Below are positions 54,239 to 59,209 of a stretch of DNA of 64,000 nucleotides, piece after piece. The stretch lies in assembly GCA_017410145.1 (NCBI GenBank), contig JAFQRJ010000019.1, positions 30,539-94,538 of the forward strand. The letters run 5' to 3'. Position 1 is the stretch's first letter. Each line of letters opens with the position of its first letter. A model generated the notes under the pieces. The model did no database searches and was not told the origin of the DNA. It saw only the letters and a list, made by a program, of their open reading frames with translations. The translations under genes and the position numbers were made by a program. The stretch comes from Tyzzerella sp. (lineage in GTDB: Bacteria > Bacillota > Clostridia > Lachnospirales > Lachnospiraceae).

Positions 54239-54643
54239 ATGAAAATCGGAGTAACATATGAAAATGGCCAAATTTTTCAACATTTTGGTCACACAGAACA
54301 ATTTAAAATCTATGAGGTTGTAGAGGGAGAAGTGGTTTCTTCTGAGGTAGTGGATACGAACGGAAGTGGTCATGGTGCATTGGCCGGATTCTTGCAGGCA
54401 CAAGGTGTGGAGGTTTTAATCTGTGGCGGTATCGGTGGCGGTGCACAGATGGCACTCGCAGAAGCAGGAATTCAATTATTTGGTGGCGTATCCGGTGATG
54501 CGGATGTAGCAGTTGAAGCATTGCTGAAAGAATCATTGGAATATAACCCGAATGTAACATGTAACCATCATGGAGAACACCACCATCACCATGAGGGTGG
54601 ATGTGGTTCACATGGATGCGGTTCTCATTGTGGAGGACACTAA
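54239..54643 (+). CDS. NifX/NifB-type cofactor-binding protein with His-rich tail
   Basis: 134 residues. The first ~105 form a dinitrogenase Fe-Mo cofactor domain: MKIGVTYENGQIFQHFGHTE, FKIYEVVEGE, VLICGGIGGGAQMALAEAGI. These domains occur widely outside nitrogen fixation and bind metal clusters. The C-terminus is CNHHGEHHHHHEGGCGSHGC and onward, with at least ten His and four Cys in ~25 residues, a strong metal-binding tail suited to nickel, zinc or copper. No nif genes are near, so a metal-storage or delivery role is more likely. GGGAG precedes the ATG. Confidence 0.82.
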   Translation: MKIGVTYENGQIFQHFGHTEQFKIYEVVEGEVVSSEVVDTNGSGHGALAGFLQAQGVEVLICGGIGGGAQMALAEAGIQLFGGVSGDADVAVEALLKESLEYNPNVTCNHHGEHHHHHEGGCGSHGCGSHCGGH

Positions 54644-54807: not shown

Positions 54808-55134
54808 ATGGTATTTAATACAGGAGCCACTCTGTTAGATGCGATTGTTTTGGCAGTCGTGTCGCAAGATGAGCAAGGAACATATGGTTATAAGATTACA
54901 CAGGATGTTAGACAGGTGTTAGATGTATCAGAATCTACCTTATATCCAGTGCTTAGACGATTGCAGAAGGATGAATGTTTAGAAGTATATGACATGGAAT
55001 ATGCAGGGCGTAATCGTCGATATTATAAGTTGACTGAAAAGGGTGCTGTTCAGTTACGCTTATATCAGATTGAATGGAAATCTTATGCATCGAAAATCAG
55101 CAAACTGTTCGAGGGAGGAAAAGAAAATGAATAG
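54808..55134 (+). CDS. PadR-family transcriptional repressor
   Basis: 108 residues. Winged HTH of the PadR group: LLDAIVLAVVSQDEQGTYGY, then VSESTLYPVLRRLQKDECLE and the wing RNRRYYKLTEKGAVQLRLY. Short PadR proteins (subfamily 2) often control envelope-stress or efflux operons. GGAGAG lies before the ATG. The gene overlaps the DUF1700 gene by eight bases. It most likely binds the inverted repeat at 54735-54776 and represses its own operon. Confidence 0.92.
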   Translation: MVFNTGATLLDAIVLAVVSQDEQGTYGYKITQDVRQVLDVSESTLYPVLRRLQKDECLEVYDMEYAGRNRRYYKLTEKGAVQLRLYQIEWKSYASKISKLFEGGKENE

Positions 55135-55795
55135 AGTAGAATTTATGAAACAGTTGGAACGTTTGCTTGGGGATATACCGGAAAATGACCGACTGGATGC
55201 AATTGCATATTATAATGATTATTTTGATGAGGCCGGTGCTGAAAATGAAGCGCAGGTGATTCGTGAGTTGGGAAGTCCGGGCAAAGTAGCGGCAATTATC
55301 AAGGCAGACTTAAATGCCAATCGAGATGAGAACACTACGTATACGGAGCGTGATGAGGAAGCATCAAATATGCCAACTAGAAGAGAAAGTGGTTATCATG
55401 CACCAAAGCAGAAAAAAGGTCTTCCGTGGCCACTGATTATTGTGCTGCTTGTATTTGCATCACCGGTGCTACTTGGCGCTTTCGGTGGCTTGCTTGGCAC
55501 ACTTCTGGGAGTGTTTGGAGCATTAATCGGAATTGTAATTGCCTTTATGGCTTGTGCGCTGGCGCTTTTGGTCGCAGGGCTTGCGTGTTTCGTAGTTGGA
55601 ATTGTGCGAGTATTTATTTCGCCGGTAGAAGGCTTGATTACAGTCGGTTTGGGAAGTTTAATGTTGGCGCTTGGAATCTTGTTCACCGTATTGTTTATCT
55701 GGTGCGCATTTAAATGGATTCCGGCACTATTCCGTGGAGCTATTAATTTAATTCAGAGATTATTTCAAAGAGGTGAAAGGAGGAAGGAAGTATGA
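55127..55795 (+). CDS. DUF1700 membrane protein
   Basis: 222 residues from ATG 55127 after GGGAGG. The N-terminal DUF1700 helix bundle has NRVEFMKQLERLLGDIPEND and YYNDYFDEAGAENEAQVIRE with ELGSPGKVAA. A charged linker follows and then about four membrane helices. DUF1700 proteins are regularly encoded after PadR and before DUF4097 genes and are thought to work in envelope-stress sensing. Its stop overlaps the next ATG (ATGA). Confidence 0.88.
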   Translation: MNRVEFMKQLERLLGDIPENDRLDAIAYYNDYFDEAGAENEAQVIRELGSPGKVAAIIKADLNANRDENTTYTERDEEASNMPTRRESGYHAPKQKKGLPWPLIIVLLVFASPVLLGAFGGLLGTLLGVFGALIGIVIAFMACALALLVAGLACFVVGIVRVFISPVEGLITVGLGSLMLALGILFTVLFIWCAFKWIPALFRGAINLIQRLFQRGERRKEV

Positions 55796-56610
55796 AGAAG
55801 TTTACGAAGATAGCATTAATACTTGTAGCTGTTTTATTTAGCGTTGGTTTGGTTAGTGTGATAGGCGCATTTGCGATGGGACTTACATGGGATTCTCTTG
55901 GTGATATGGTGGATAGAGGTAAATTCAGTTTTAATTTCAACGATGATGACGAGCCGCTATACGTTGATACGAATCAAGACTATGGAGATACATCCCAAGA
56001 CAATATGTTGTCTCAGGAGAAAGAAGACAACGAATTCACCGCAGTTCAGGAGGATTTTCATAGTCTGGATATCGAATTTGGTTATGGCGTTTTGGAGATA
56101 AAATATGGTGATGTGGAAAAACTCCAAATCAACCAAAAGAATGTGGATAATTATCGTTGCTATGTTAAGGAAGGTTCCTTATACATTGAAGGGAATTTAA
56201 AGACAAAAGTAGACATTACCAATCATGATGGAGAAATTACTATTGTAGTTCCAAAGAACATGGTATTCCAAGAAGTGGATTTGGAAGTGGGAGCTGGCAA
56301 GGCGGATGTAGCAAATTTAAAAGCAAACCAAGTGGATATTGAACTTGGTGCCGGAGAGATGAATGTGACAGGTCTAGATGCAAAGAAGTTTGATGCGAAG
56401 ACCGGTGCAGGTGAATTATATGCGGAATTGGTTGGAAAGCAAACCGATTATAGCTATGAGTTAGAGTGCGGTATAGGGCAGTTGAAAATCGGGGACAGTA
56501 GTTATAGCGGACTTAAAACAGAACAAAAAATTTCAAATCAGGGAGCAAAGCGATTTGCAGACATAGAGTGTGGAGTTGGAGAAATTATAATTAAATTCCA
56601 AGAACAATAG
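55792..56610 (+). CDS. DUF4097-family adhesin-like beta-helix protein
   Basis: 272 residues. N-terminal membrane anchor (IALILVAVLFSVGLVSVIGA), an acidic linker (NFNDDDEPLYVDTNQDYGDT), then repeated strands typical of DUF4097: LDIEFGYGVLEIKYGDVEKL, VDLEVGAGKADVANLKANQV, DIELGAGEMNVTGLDA and ECGVGEIIIKF. The G(A/V)G(E/K) turns recur every ~20 residues. Probably an extracytoplasmic domain held by the anchor. ATGA overlap with DUF1700 shows tight coupling. Confidence 0.88.
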   Translation: MKKFTKIALILVAVLFSVGLVSVIGAFAMGLTWDSLGDMVDRGKFSFNFNDDDEPLYVDTNQDYGDTSQDNMLSQEKEDNEFTAVQEDFHSLDIEFGYGVLEIKYGDVEKLQINQKNVDNYRCYVKEGSLYIEGNLKTKVDITNHDGEITIVVPKNMVFQEVDLEVGAGKADVANLKANQVDIELGAGEMNVTGLDAKKFDAKTGAGELYAELVGKQTDYSYELECGIGQLKIGDSSYSGLKTEQKISNQGAKRFADIECGVGEIIIKFQEQ

Positions 56611-56634
56611 ATTAGAATAAGGAGGATATAGATT

Positions 56635-56817
56635 ATGGGAGATAAAAGATTGTATCGTTCATCAACAAATTATATGCTGGCTGGCGTATGCGGAGGGATT
56701 GCAGAGTATTTTAATATTGATCCAACATTAGTTCGATTAGGATGGGTTCTATTTTCTGCATTAGGCGGTTCGGGAATCCTGGCATATATTGTTGCCGCAA
56801 TTATTATTCCAAAATAA
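56635..56817 (+). CDS. PspC-domain protein
   Basis: 60 residues, a minimal PspC domain: KRLYRSSTNYMLAGVCGGIA, EYFNIDPTLVRLGWVLFSAL and one to two membrane helices ending VAAIIIPK. PspC proteins sense or respond to membrane stress. AAGGAGG precedes the ATG by nine bases. Last gene of the PadR-DUF1700-DUF4097-PspC operon, ending at a terminator. Confidence 0.92.
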   Translation: MGDKRLYRSSTNYMLAGVCGGIAEYFNIDPTLVRLGWVLFSALGGSGILAYIVAAIIIPK

Positions 56818-56935: not shown

Positions 56936-57583
56936 ATGATTAATAAGAATGCATTTCGAAACCTGTCGTATGGAGTTTATGTCGTTTCTACATTAGATGG
57001 CGATAGACCAACCGGATGTGTAGCAAATAGCGCAATGCAGATTACTTCAGAGCCGGCTACGATTGCTGTCAGCATCAATCATGACAACTATTCCAATGCT
57101 TGTATTGAAAAAACAGGAAAGTTTGCAATTTCCATTTTAACAGAAGAATCAGACCCAGGATTAATCGGTATCTTTGGATTCCAATCAGGAAAAGATGTGA
57201 ACAAATTCGATGGAGTAGAAGCATTAGAAAAAGAAGGGTTATCCGTAGTTGCAGATGCTTGTAGTTATTTAGTATGCAAAGTGATTAATAAGATGGAGAC
57301 AGCTACACATACGGTATTCTTAGGAGAAGTGATTGCAGCAGATGTGCTGAAAGAAGAAGAGCCAATGACCTATGCATACTACCATAAAGTAGTGAAAGGA
57401 AAGAGCCCGAAGAACGCGCCTACATACATTGCAGAGGAAGAGGAGACTGTTCAAAAGGAAGAAAAATGGGTATGTAGCATTTGTGGATATGAGTATAGAG
57501 GAGAAATTCCATTTGAAGAAGTACCGGAGCAGTTCGTATGTCCGGTATGTAAACAGCCGAAATCGGTGTTTGTGAGGAAATAG
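56936..57583 (+). CDS. Flavin reductase-rubredoxin fusion (Hrb type)
   Basis: 215 residues. Residues 1-~150 form a flavin-reductase-like FMN-binding split barrel: NLSYGVYVVSTLDGDRPTGC, ANSAMQITSEPATIAVSINH, KTGKFAISILTEES. A linker rich in Glu leads to a C-terminal rubredoxin domain WVCSICGYEYRGEIPFEEVP, FVCPVCKQPKS, with all four iron-binding Cys. This is the high-molecular-weight rubredoxin described from Moorella, which passes electrons from NAD(P)H to oxygen- or peroxide-reducing proteins. The rubrerythrin at 29661 is a possible acceptor. TTGGAGG precedes the ATG. Confidence 0.93.
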   Translation: MINKNAFRNLSYGVYVVSTLDGDRPTGCVANSAMQITSEPATIAVSINHDNYSNACIEKTGKFAISILTEESDPGLIGIFGFQSGKDVNKFDGVEALEKEGLSVVADACSYLVCKVINKMETATHTVFLGEVIAADVLKEEEPMTYAYYHKVVKGKSPKNAPTYIAEEEETVQKEEKWVCSICGYEYRGEIPFEEVPEQFVCPVCKQPKSVFVRK

Positions 57584-57687: not shown

Positions 57688-57743
57688 AAAAACCACTAAA
57701 ATAGTGGTTTTTTCTATTTACAAACCTTTAATTTAGTGGTTTA
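57688..57743 (+). promoter_or_regulatory. Repeated TAGTGGTTT control region of the HipA-like module
   Basis: AAAAACCACTA (57688-57698) pairs with TAGTGGTTTTT (57702-57712), loop AAA, followed by TTC: a terminator-like hairpin. A third copy, TTTAGTGGTTTA (57732-57743), lies 20 bases on. The first arm can pair with either of the other two, so this may be an attenuator, or the copies may be binding sites of the HTH antitoxin encoded 55 bases downstream. Confidence 0.5.
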
Positions 57744-57798
57744 ATAATAAAAAAGGTTGTTGTAAAGAATATCTATATTATATTGGATGAGGAAAGTT

Positions 57799-58347
57799 AT
57801 GAGAGAAAAATTATTTGTTACACCGGAATATGTTACAGCAAGAGAAATAAAAAATATAAGAAATGAACTAGGGCTTACACAAAAAGAATTTGCGTTACTT
57901 GTTCAATGCTCCAAATCAACAGTTGAAAGATGGGAAATGAGTGAGGAGCCGATTAGTGGCGCCATCAGTTTGTTGGTGAGAATGTTGGAGAGATATCCGG
58001 AATATGTGGATAACATAAAGATTCCAAAGAAAAAGACACCTATCAGACTGTGGTATATGCATAACCAAACGGTATGCACCATTATAGATGTTAATGAGAT
58101 GCGTAAAGAGGTTAAAATTGTAAATTACACGGATAATATTATGTTTCGGGCATTTGGCAGAGAGGAAAAACCGGATTTTCAAATGTATGAGGAATTCCTT
58201 AGGTCAAGATGTTTTCCGGAAACCAGAGATAAAATGAAATTGGTGTTAAAGGATTTGAATTTGCCATTTTATGATCCATTTATGATTATTGAAAAGACGG
58301 AGGGAAGAATGGCGGAGGATAATTTCTGGATTAGAATAGAGAGGTAA
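57799..58347 (+). CDS. HTH antitoxin fused to a HipS-like domain
   Basis: 182 residues from ATG 57799, after GATGAGGAAAG. Residues ~15-60 are an XRE helix-turn-helix (IKNIRNELGLTQKEFALLVQ, CSKSTVERWEMSEEPISGAI). Residues ~82-182 look like the N-subdomain 1 of HipA, the part that is a separate antitoxin (HipS) in the E. coli HipBST system: a beta-rich stretch PIRLWYMHNQTVCTIIDVN, NYTDNIMFRAFG, then YEEFLRSRCFPETRDKMKLV and FYDPFMIIEKTEGR. In HipA the matching part reads like F..LLPE..R...L...G....D.F.LL...G.D. If correct, one protein combines the HipB and HipS jobs. Three bases separate it from the kinase gene. Confidence 0.65.
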   Translation: MREKLFVTPEYVTAREIKNIRNELGLTQKEFALLVQCSKSTVERWEMSEEPISGAISLLVRMLERYPEYVDNIKIPKKKTPIRLWYMHNQTVCTIIDVNEMRKEVKIVNYTDNIMFRAFGREEKPDFQMYEEFLRSRCFPETRDKMKLVLKDLNLPFYDPFMIIEKTEGRMAEDNFWIRIER

Positions 58348-58350
58348 CAA

Positions 58351-59160
58351 ATGGTACAATTATTTGAGCAAGACATCAGAACAACGGATAGACAATCATC
58401 AAAAGGAAATCAACTAAAGTGGGAAAATAACGGAATCTGGTACAAGGCGGATTACACGGGATATGAAGGATTAGTGGAATACGTTATATCCCACCTGTTA
58501 CAAAAATCTTCTTTGGCAACGGACGAGTTCGTTTTATATGATTTAGAACAAATGCGATACAAAGAAACAGTATACAAAGGTGCAAAAAGTAAAAGCTTTT
58601 TGACAGATGGTTGGCAAATCATTACGCTTGAAAGACTATTTCATAATTTTTTTGGTGAGAGCCTCTACAAGGCTATTTATAGAATCCCAGAGCATGAAAA
58701 GCGTCTCCCTTTCTTGGTTAATCAAGTGGAGAGAATGACGGGGCTACAAAATTTCGGAGCATATCTTAACAAACTTTTCACCATAGATGCCTTTTTCCTA
58801 AATGAAGATAGACATACCCATAACATTGCCGTCTTAATGAACGAAAAAGGAGAGTTTGCATATTGTCCTATATTTGATAATGGAGCTGGTTTACTGGCTG
58901 ATACTACGATGGATTATCCAATGAGTGGAGATGTCTATCTACTGATGAAAGAATCTAAGGCAAAAACGATATGCGATAGCTTTGATGAGCAACTAGATAT
59001 TTCAGAAGCTTTGTATGGGGAGAACATAAAATTCAACTTTACTCAAAAAGATGTAAGAGAGTTATTGGAGAATGTTACGGAGTATACACAGGTAGAAAAA
59101 AATAGAGTCGAACGAATTGTGTGTGCGCAAATGAATAAATATGGGTACTTGTTTAAGTAA
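58351..59160 (+). CDS. Short HipA/HipT-like kinase (candidate toxin)
   Basis: 269 residues, much shorter than HipA (~440) because the N-terminal subdomain is missing. Gly-rich-like loop RQSSKGNQLKW at 14-24 (two Ser where HipT has autophosphorylated Ser), then IWYKADYTGYEGLVEYVISH. The HipA-type catalytic loop AFFLNEDRHTHNIAVL holds Asp153 and Asn158, and the metal-binding Asp176 is in CPIFDNGAGLL. HipT of E. coli phosphorylates tryptophanyl-tRNA synthetase and HipA glutamyl-tRNA synthetase; the target here is unknown. All key kinase residues are present. It follows the HTH-HipS-like gene by three bases in a toxin-antitoxin layout. Confidence 0.7.
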   Translation: MVQLFEQDIRTTDRQSSKGNQLKWENNGIWYKADYTGYEGLVEYVISHLLQKSSLATDEFVLYDLEQMRYKETVYKGAKSKSFLTDGWQIITLERLFHNFFGESLYKAIYRIPEHEKRLPFLVNQVERMTGLQNFGAYLNKLFTIDAFFLNEDRHTHNIAVLMNEKGEFAYCPIFDNGAGLLADTTMDYPMSGDVYLLMKESKAKTICDSFDEQLDISEALYGENIKFNFTQKDVRELLENVTEYTQVEKNRVERIVCAQMNKYGYLFK

Positions 59161-59182: not shown

Positions 59183-59209
59183 TTAGCACTCTCCCTTGAC
59201 GAGTGCTAA
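59183..59209 (+). promoter_or_regulatory. CIRCE operator (HrcA site) of clpB
   Basis: TTAGCACTC (59183-59191), nine bases TCCCTTGAC, GAGTGCTAA (59201-59209): an exact match to the CIRCE consensus bound by the heat-shock repressor HrcA. The hairpin with the following TTTTT could also end transcription of the upstream kinase gene. Confidence 0.95.

Follow-up and report, generated by a model that had tools for sequence, protein, structure and literature searches.

A short HipA-superfamily kinase and an upstream HTH protein with a lid-like partner domain: a probable two-gene toxin-antitoxin module in a Lachnospiraceae genome

Results

Layout of the locus

We analysed a 64,000-nucleotide stretch of contig JAFQRJ010000019.1 from Tyzzerella sp. 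(assembly GCA_017410145.1), hereafter the window. It carries two adjoining genes, one for an HTH-containing protein and one for a short kinase, preceded by two operator-like palindromes (Table 1). The genes lie in the same frame with 3 nt between them (TAA-CAA), and an alternative ATG at 57787 would lengthen the upstream protein, called the partner below, to 186 residues.

Table 1. Features of the partner-kinase locus (window coordinates)
Feature	Coordinates	Strand	Basis
Operator-like palindrome 1, ACCACTAAAATAGTGGT	57692..57708	.	exact pattern match in window
Operator-like palindrome 2, ACCTTTAATTTAGTGGT, 32 bp from the first	57724..57740	.	exact pattern match in window
Partner gene (HTH plus lid-like kinase-partner domain), 182 aa	57799..58347	+	ORF, HTH_3, AF2 mean pLDDT 90.6, pTM 0.78
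HTH domain, MqsA/HigA-2 type (residues 14-73)	57838..58017	+	HTH_3, TIGR03830, HigA-2, Foldseek
Kinase-partner domain (residues 80-182), predicted as three strands, three helices and a last strand	58036..58344	+	AF2, alignments, hhalign
HipA-superfamily mini-kinase, 269 aa, without N-terminal lid	58351..59160	+	ORF, profile and fold matches
Gly-rich loop motif SSKGNQLKW (S16-W24), candidate autophosphorylation serines S16/S17	58396..58422	+	invariant in 30/30
Catalytic loop NEDRHTHN (residues 151-158; catalytic D153, N158)	58801..58824	+	N151, D153 and N158 in 80/80
Metal-binding Asp176 (IFDNG)	58876..58878	+	conserved in 80/80 kinases

On the 3' side the kinase gene is followed by a clpB-like gene. 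Between the two, positions 59183-59209 match the CIRCE consensus perfectly (0 matches expected by chance), and we take them to be a CIRCE element, the HrcA operator; since this perfect element precedes clpB, the 3' limit of the pair is clear. The 5' neighbour (56936-57583) is, judging by eye, a flavin reductase/rubredoxin fusion. Further upstream, genes named by eye include a PadR-like regulator followed by DUF1700/DUF4097-like and PspC-like membrane-stress genes (54808-56817), and one for a small protein whose tail is rich in His and Cys and which is reminiscent of iron-molybdenum cofactor-binding proteins of the NifX/NafY type (54239-54643). Among the fetched loci, whose flanks reach at most 6 kb and are often shorter, a flavin reductase or clpB stands beside the pair only in the locus of the window's own genome, which is 67.8% complete. 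In another genome of the same genus (G520) a flavin-reductase homologue is present, and clpB is absent from the fetched flank.

The downstream gene encodes a HipA-superfamily kinase without the N-terminal lid

Against Pfam HipA_C the kinase scored 15.3 bits, about half the cut-off of 30.5, and 30 of 30 close relatives matched HipA_C at E ≤ 1 (best 7.2e-6). A profile search had been proposed in the first-pass annotation of this DNA; the profile of 14 diverse kinases recovered CtkA (6.4e-8) and Legionella HipT (0.0014, two sequences) from the PDB. Foldseek searches with an AF2 model of partner and kinase as one fused chain returned CtkA at 9.5e-9, Shewanella HipA at 3.6e-6 and HipT at 2.5e-4.

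Conservation was examined in a set of 80 kinases (E < 1e-40; one locus kept per place, with a few identical sequences left). N151, D153, N158 and D176 are kept in all 80, in agreement with the catalytic loop and metal-binding Asp recognised at first pass, and G19, K23 and K32 in all 73 kinases readable there. The two serines that had been singled out at the Gly-rich loop are likewise conserved: position 16 is Ser in 68 kinases, Thr in 5 and Leu in 1, position 17 is Ser in 72, Thr in 1 and Cys in 1, with 6 unreadable in both cases, and each position is thus Ser or Thr in 73 of the 74 readable kinases. Because the Gly-rich loop already begins at residue 16, the kinase lacks HipA N-subdomain 1, as had been noted before. 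The Asp/Asn loop, the metal Asp, the Gly-rich loop and the Lys by which the HipA superfamily is recognised are all present, and the 269-residue protein is a Ser/Thr kinase of this superfamily and a probable toxin.

The partner joins an MqsA/HigA-2-type HTH to a separate, conserved domain

The N-terminal part of the partner matched Pfam HTH_3 with 28.8 bits, above the 23-bit cut-off, TIGR03830 at 1.5e-13, which is yet under that family's cut-off, and the HigA-2 antitoxin at 1.3e-4. With the partner structure as query, Foldseek matched HigA-2 (4.3e-4) and MqsA, and HipB came lower (0.028 for the Legionella protein and 0.17). Residues 14-73 are an Xre-family HTH, nearer to MqsA/HigA-2 than to HipB. 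The earlier proposal of HipB and HipS in one chain stands as to the fusion of an HTH with a partner domain, covalently joined within one ORF, but not as to the kind of HTH.

The second domain, residues 80-182, is separate from the HTH, as had been suggested, and is covered by no Pfam model. In the AF2 model it consists of strands 82-88, 91-99 and 104-109, helices 127-138, 143-152 and 160-167, and a final strand 176-181. The three-helix part is the most conserved stretch of the protein: mean pairwise identity over 32 sequences is 0.75 for residues 126-182, 0.52 for 80-125 and 0.46 for the HTH.

Partner and kinase are inherited together

The two-gene HTH-protein/kinase module read from the sequence at first pass proved real: of 36 database relatives of the kinase (53-75% identity), 34 are preceded by the partner, mostly at a distance of 2-17 nt. 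In the two relatives that lack it (L032, L033; fetched loci carry the prefix L) the kinase is truncated, and at L019 the partner is interrupted. The partner's second domain, too, accompanies the kinase as expected, being present in the fetched locus of all 73 intact kinases; of seven truncated kinases, four have it and three do not (L032, L033, L132). The partner gene thus adjoins the kinase gene and is conserved with it, as is looked for in a type II toxin-antitoxin pair. Two Acetatifactor MAGs (L034, L036) carry a kinase gene without its N-terminal parts next to an intact partner gene.

The reverse count, of partners with a kinase, is not a fair one because most loci had been retrieved by way of their kinase. 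Two partner domains had no kinase match in their locus. At L090, a stand-alone domain is encoded on an Alkalihalophilus plasmid (2315-2722, plus strand), with no kinase match in the fetched flanks; at L097, a 630-residue ORF of a viral contig (2204-4093, plus strand) matches part of the partner domain at its C-terminal end and is cut off by the end of the locus. Pairwise distances between partner domains mirror those between kinases (r = 0.919 for 76 pairs, against 0.313 in the best of 2000 permutations), a correlation to which shared species history contributes.

Kinase matches at E ≤ 1e-35 were found in 36 of 200 genomes of the family, the window's own included, and in a phylum-wide sample in 4 of 398, again with its own; G520, the only further member of the genus among these family genomes, gave no kinase match. 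The nearest named relatives of the kinase are in Lachnospiraceae MAGs and Fusicatenibacter. Further matches lie on 11 plasmid records, on a Clostridioides phage and five gut phage contigs that lack annotation (identities between 57% and 26%), and on a viral contig of 99 kb. Scanning viral contigs with the family alignments A1, A3 and A4 gained little.

Paired palindromes precede the partner gene

A 17-bp palindrome, ACCMYYANNNTRRKGGT, occurs with at most two mismatches upstream of the partner gene in 27 of 31 homologous regions, against a mean of 0.24 and a maximum of 3 in mononucleotide shuffles, the pattern having been derived from the very regions in which it was counted. It was not found upstream at L011, L013, L028 and L029. 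Two copies are present in 24 regions, and in all 24 their spacing is 32-34 bp. With a looser pattern and no mismatch, the window holds three matches where 0.04 are expected; the third, at 54582-54598, lies inside a coding region. These paired palindromes before the gene support a possible autorepression. Promoter-like sequences showed no excess (5 found, 7.0 expected).

Residue 40 of the recognition helix was compared with operator base 4 at 50 loci, of which 39 have K or P/S/A at this residue together with a site. By majority base all 39 agree, 17 having K with C and 22 having P/S/A with A (ties at L008 and L112 counted as A). As a case of covariation this was rejected, since the tree holds only two changes and supported branches only one independent pair.

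The partner domain resembles the HipA-type lid in position and predicted topology, not in sequence

In Firmicutes, some Hip kinases have a related domain ahead of the kinase core in the same chain. L042 encodes a single 467-residue protein with the order HTH_3, partner-type domain, kinase (HTH_3 8.4e-17; domain E 0.0035 with the un-iterated HMM). Three HMM iterations added L045, L046, L050, L052, L053, L101 and L025 (7107-8369); seven of the eight single chains therefore depend on iteration, and all these E-values refer to the small ORF set of the fetched loci. The window's own genome contributes a further single chain, L178 on contig C9, with 358 residues and a kinase match, whose partner-type domain scores 0.0054 with the un-iterated HMM and whose residues 32-94 match the iterated one. 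The same genome encodes, on contig C10 (L177), a 433-residue HipA-like kinase with Couple_hipA and HipA_C above cut-off. In hhalign comparisons the partner domain matched the eight pre-kinase regions with 98.6% probability (E 1e-15), and with 96.9% (E 1.6e-10) when the close-family alignment was the sole query, permuted profiles scoring at most 15 against 59.5.

Homology to HipS or HipA N-subdomain 1, as proposed for residues 80-182 at first pass, was not supported, and for the classical HipA subdomain it was rejected at the sequence level. The reference set held 13 N-termini, nine of HipA type (including E. coli K-12 HipA) and four Firmicutes Couple_hipA proteins; L135 was left out, the chosen ORF not being the Hip gene. 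Run in local and global mode with permuted and reversed controls, hhalign gave probabilities of 0.05-0.7%, with scores that 2 to 34 of the 60 permuted profiles also reached, according to the set and the mode. When all partner types were merged into one alignment, the probability was 2.1% locally and 0.45% globally (no permutations), and HMM searches with residues 80-182 too found no kinship to the classical subdomain.

In the outline given in PMC10627512, HipS has four strands, then three helices that form the HipT interface, then a fifth strand. The modelled partner domain shows the same order of strands and helices with one strand fewer, and to this extent structure prediction agreed with the earlier proposal; Foldseek with the partner alone returned mainly HTH proteins, with no HipS or HipA among the best 50, and a search of viral models again mainly HTH proteins, none with E ≤ 0.001. 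In the fused-chain model both domains are confident (pTM 0.64, no PAE given), and residues 161-180 have a pLDDT of 90-92 compared with 82-83 in the partner alone. Aligned to full HipA by Foldseek, this model covered 449-495 columns at an rmsd of about 21-22 Å. With that pTM and that rmsd, the HipA-like pose is not reproduced.

By its place in the single chains, the partner domain appears to stand where the lid does, and according to the model it probably has the lid's fold. Residues 80-182 are best read as the missing lid. "HipS-like" applies to them by position and topology only, because no sequence homology was found and the docking pose was not confirmed: what survives of the missing-subdomain proposal is the kinship to single-chain pre-kinase regions, not that to classical HipA N-subdomain 1.

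The partner domain occurs with different DNA-binding regions

Outside the single chains we counted 82 partner ORFs (duplicate loci removed, the decayed L019 and the partial L097 kept). An Xre HTH is present on 52, and the resolvase HTH_7 exceeds its Pfam cut-off on 8 (L084, L092, L118, L119, L121-L124). By eye, L093 and L094 seem to begin with an AbrB/MazE-like stretch (Pfam MazE 0.056, under the cut-off, for L094 and no match for L093), and L130 has a different N-terminal region with no Pfam match. Fifteen ORFs are stand-alone partner domains, encoded upstream of the kinase at L039, L040, L089, L091, L113 and L127-L129 and downstream of it at L041, L085-L088, L095 and L131. No evident HTH gene was seen by eye within 500 bp upstream at 13 of these 15 loci (L041 and L095 excluded); at L085 and L087, annotated HTH genes lie further away on the opposite strand. 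The remaining ORFs are L051 (longer, downstream), L090, L097 and L019. In a kinase tree of 76 rows and 73 different sequences, with several long branches and bootstrap values not settled, the Xre forms belong to a 53-member group (99/99) that includes two HTH-less members, the resolvase forms make up a group of 8 (87/84), and the AbrB-like forms pair at 100/99.

Ten more short kinases (276-295 aa) were hand-picked among the weaker matches of the family search. Each is followed by a protein with a related domain according to the iterated HMM, and 8 of 10 are by the un-iterated one (E < 0.05). These downstream partners are of two kinds. Six look alike (L182, L183, L184, L186, L189, L191) and tend to end in HTH_17, which exceeds its cut-off in L183, L186 and L191, falls just short of it in L182, scores weakly in L184 and has no match in L189; DUF2442 is above cut-off in L182 and L191. 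In the other four the domain goes with a resolvase domain: L188 and L190 exceed the cut-off, L185 stays below it, and L187 gives no match. By hhalign the partner domain matched the HTH_17 kind with 98.3% and the resolvase kind with 81.8%; with only the close family as query the values were 85.7% and 24.5%, the resolvase kind being the most weakly related of all that were compared.

We tentatively suggest, at somewhat less than an even chance, that one domain of about 100 residues is a common clamp of short Hip kinases in Firmicutes, onto which DNA-binding modules are plugged interchangeably: an Xre, resolvase HTH or AbrB-like region at the N-terminus, HTH_17 or a resolvase domain at the C-terminus, none at all, or everything in a single chain together with the kinase. 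Such a clamp would be one that no Pfam model finds and that has no detectable sequence kinship to HipA-type lids.

Discussion

Relation to known Hip systems

The HipBST systems of E. coli O127 and Legionella likewise have a short kinase without N-subdomain 1, an HTH repressor, a lid-like domain encoded in trans and serines at the Gly-rich loop, as far as described in PMC10627512 and PMC9325769. They differ from the window pair in having three genes (hipB, hipS, hipT) where here the HTH and the partner domain share one of two ORFs, in a lid that is kin to HipA N-subdomain 1 where ours has no detected sequence homology to it, in a HipB rather than an MqsA/HigA-type HTH, and in a Gly-rich loop described with two Ser/Thr around a small aliphatic residue (PMC10627512), here SSKG. 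In HipBST the toxicity of the kinase is neutralised by its partner, and the target is TrpS. The bipartite HTH-HipS/kinase design put forward at first pass was right in outline, in the pairing, the fusion and the lid-less kinase, while its lid has not turned out to be demonstrably HipS.

In hipMP, as presented in PMC8262856, the kinase comes first and a gamma-delta-resolvase-like partner follows. The loci L185, L187, L188 and L190 have this arrangement, with a partner domain related to that of the window joined to a resolvase domain (above cut-off, as noted, in two); the window pair has the opposite gene order and an MqsA/HigA-type HTH. A link to HIRAN proteins (HipL, and HipN with its HipS-like domain) was not seen: HIRAN is present in 44 of 199 genomes, and none of 30 fetched loci matched the partner-domain or kinase HMMs; two tblastn searches of plasmids with short kinases of the HIRAN branch both gave one and the same record and no HIRAN link. 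The Helicobacter pylori mini-kinase CtkA is the best solved-structure match of the window kinase, and we know of no paired HTH-lid partner for it. In the freely accessible literature covered, we found no description of this pair beyond hipRG and hipMP.

Proposed mechanism and alternatives

We consider it quite probable that the pair is a two-gene, autoregulated type II toxin-antitoxin module with repressor and kinase inhibitor in one chain. The steps that we infer are DNA binding, kinase binding and inhibition by the partner, and autophosphorylation, target modification and toxicity on the part of the kinase. The MqsA/HigA-like HTH would bind the two palindromes upstream of the operon, and the C-terminal domain of about 100 residues would stand in for the lid found ahead of the core in single-chain Hip kinases and keep both the kinase and its Gly-rich loop in an inactive state. 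Once the partner is lost or titrated away, the kinase would be free; it may autophosphorylate at S16/S17, and it would arrest growth by phosphorylating a host protein, for which an aminoacyl-tRNA synthetase is the candidate by analogy.

A role in phage defence, with the kinase set free when a phage interferes with the partner and the infection thereby aborted, is somewhat unlikely. The kinase matches the PADLOC candidate PDC-M03A at 2.7e-8, and the stand-alone and other partner relatives match PDC-M03B over the same core (L041 at 3.6e-7, others weaker; best matches of the ten extra partners 2.3e-5 to 0.012; models 232-255 positions long), but the window partner itself has no PDC-M03B match up to E 10. 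To our knowledge PDC-M03 is moreover a candidate and not a tested system. Defence has been proposed for related families (PMC8262856). The same source describes hipRG, in which an HTH-bearing HipR is encoded upstream of short kinases (HipG) without N-subdomain 1, and if the window pair belonged there it would already have been described. With hipRF, hipRG is among the closest known systems, yet membership is unlikely: HipG is reported without the Ser/Thr at the Gly-rich loop that is conserved here, the four published short families span 279-321 residues against 269, and the window kinase reaches only half the HipA_C cut-off. HipR's second domain has been likened to Stl (PMC8262856), and Foldseek matches of the partner to Stl are weak (8q86_C, probability 0.33; 6h49, probability 0.97 over 67 columns, TMq 0.24).

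The kinase might also be non-toxic, phosphorylating the HTH partner or being anchored by it to switch transcription of the operon or of further genes. Such a signalling pair would suit the frequency of the kinase in gut Lachnospiraceae genomes and the conserved palindromes; it is nonetheless quite unlikely, given that none of the 73 intact kinases lacks the partner domain in its locus, that the pair also travels on plasmids and phage contigs, and that partners such as L039, L040 and L085-L088 have no recognised DNA-binding domain and no obvious transcriptional output. Very improbable is a dimerisation or sensing domain at residues 80-182 that makes no kinase contact. The unconfirmed docking in the fused-chain model and the lack of sequence relationship to HipS-type lids would agree with it, but the domain occurs with no HTH attached next to kinases of the same kind, be it before or after the gene, lies ahead of the kinase core inside single-chain kinases, and diverges in step with the kinase.

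Implications

The toxin-antitoxin reading places operator binding and, presumably, kinase clamping on one chain. Nature has exchanged the DNA-binding part while keeping one clamp/kinase core, which makes it testable how release from DNA is tied to activation of Hip kinases. If the clamp proposal is true, operator exit and kinase release could be one coupled event in the fused forms, and each lineage would then have rewired the trigger of the same kinase core. A clamp that acts in this way would bring hipMP-like, PDC-M03-like and unannotated Firmicutes pairs under one architecture. One such unannotated pair is found in Eubacterium eligens, where RefSeq lists a "helix-turn-helix domain-containing protein" beside a "hypothetical protein".
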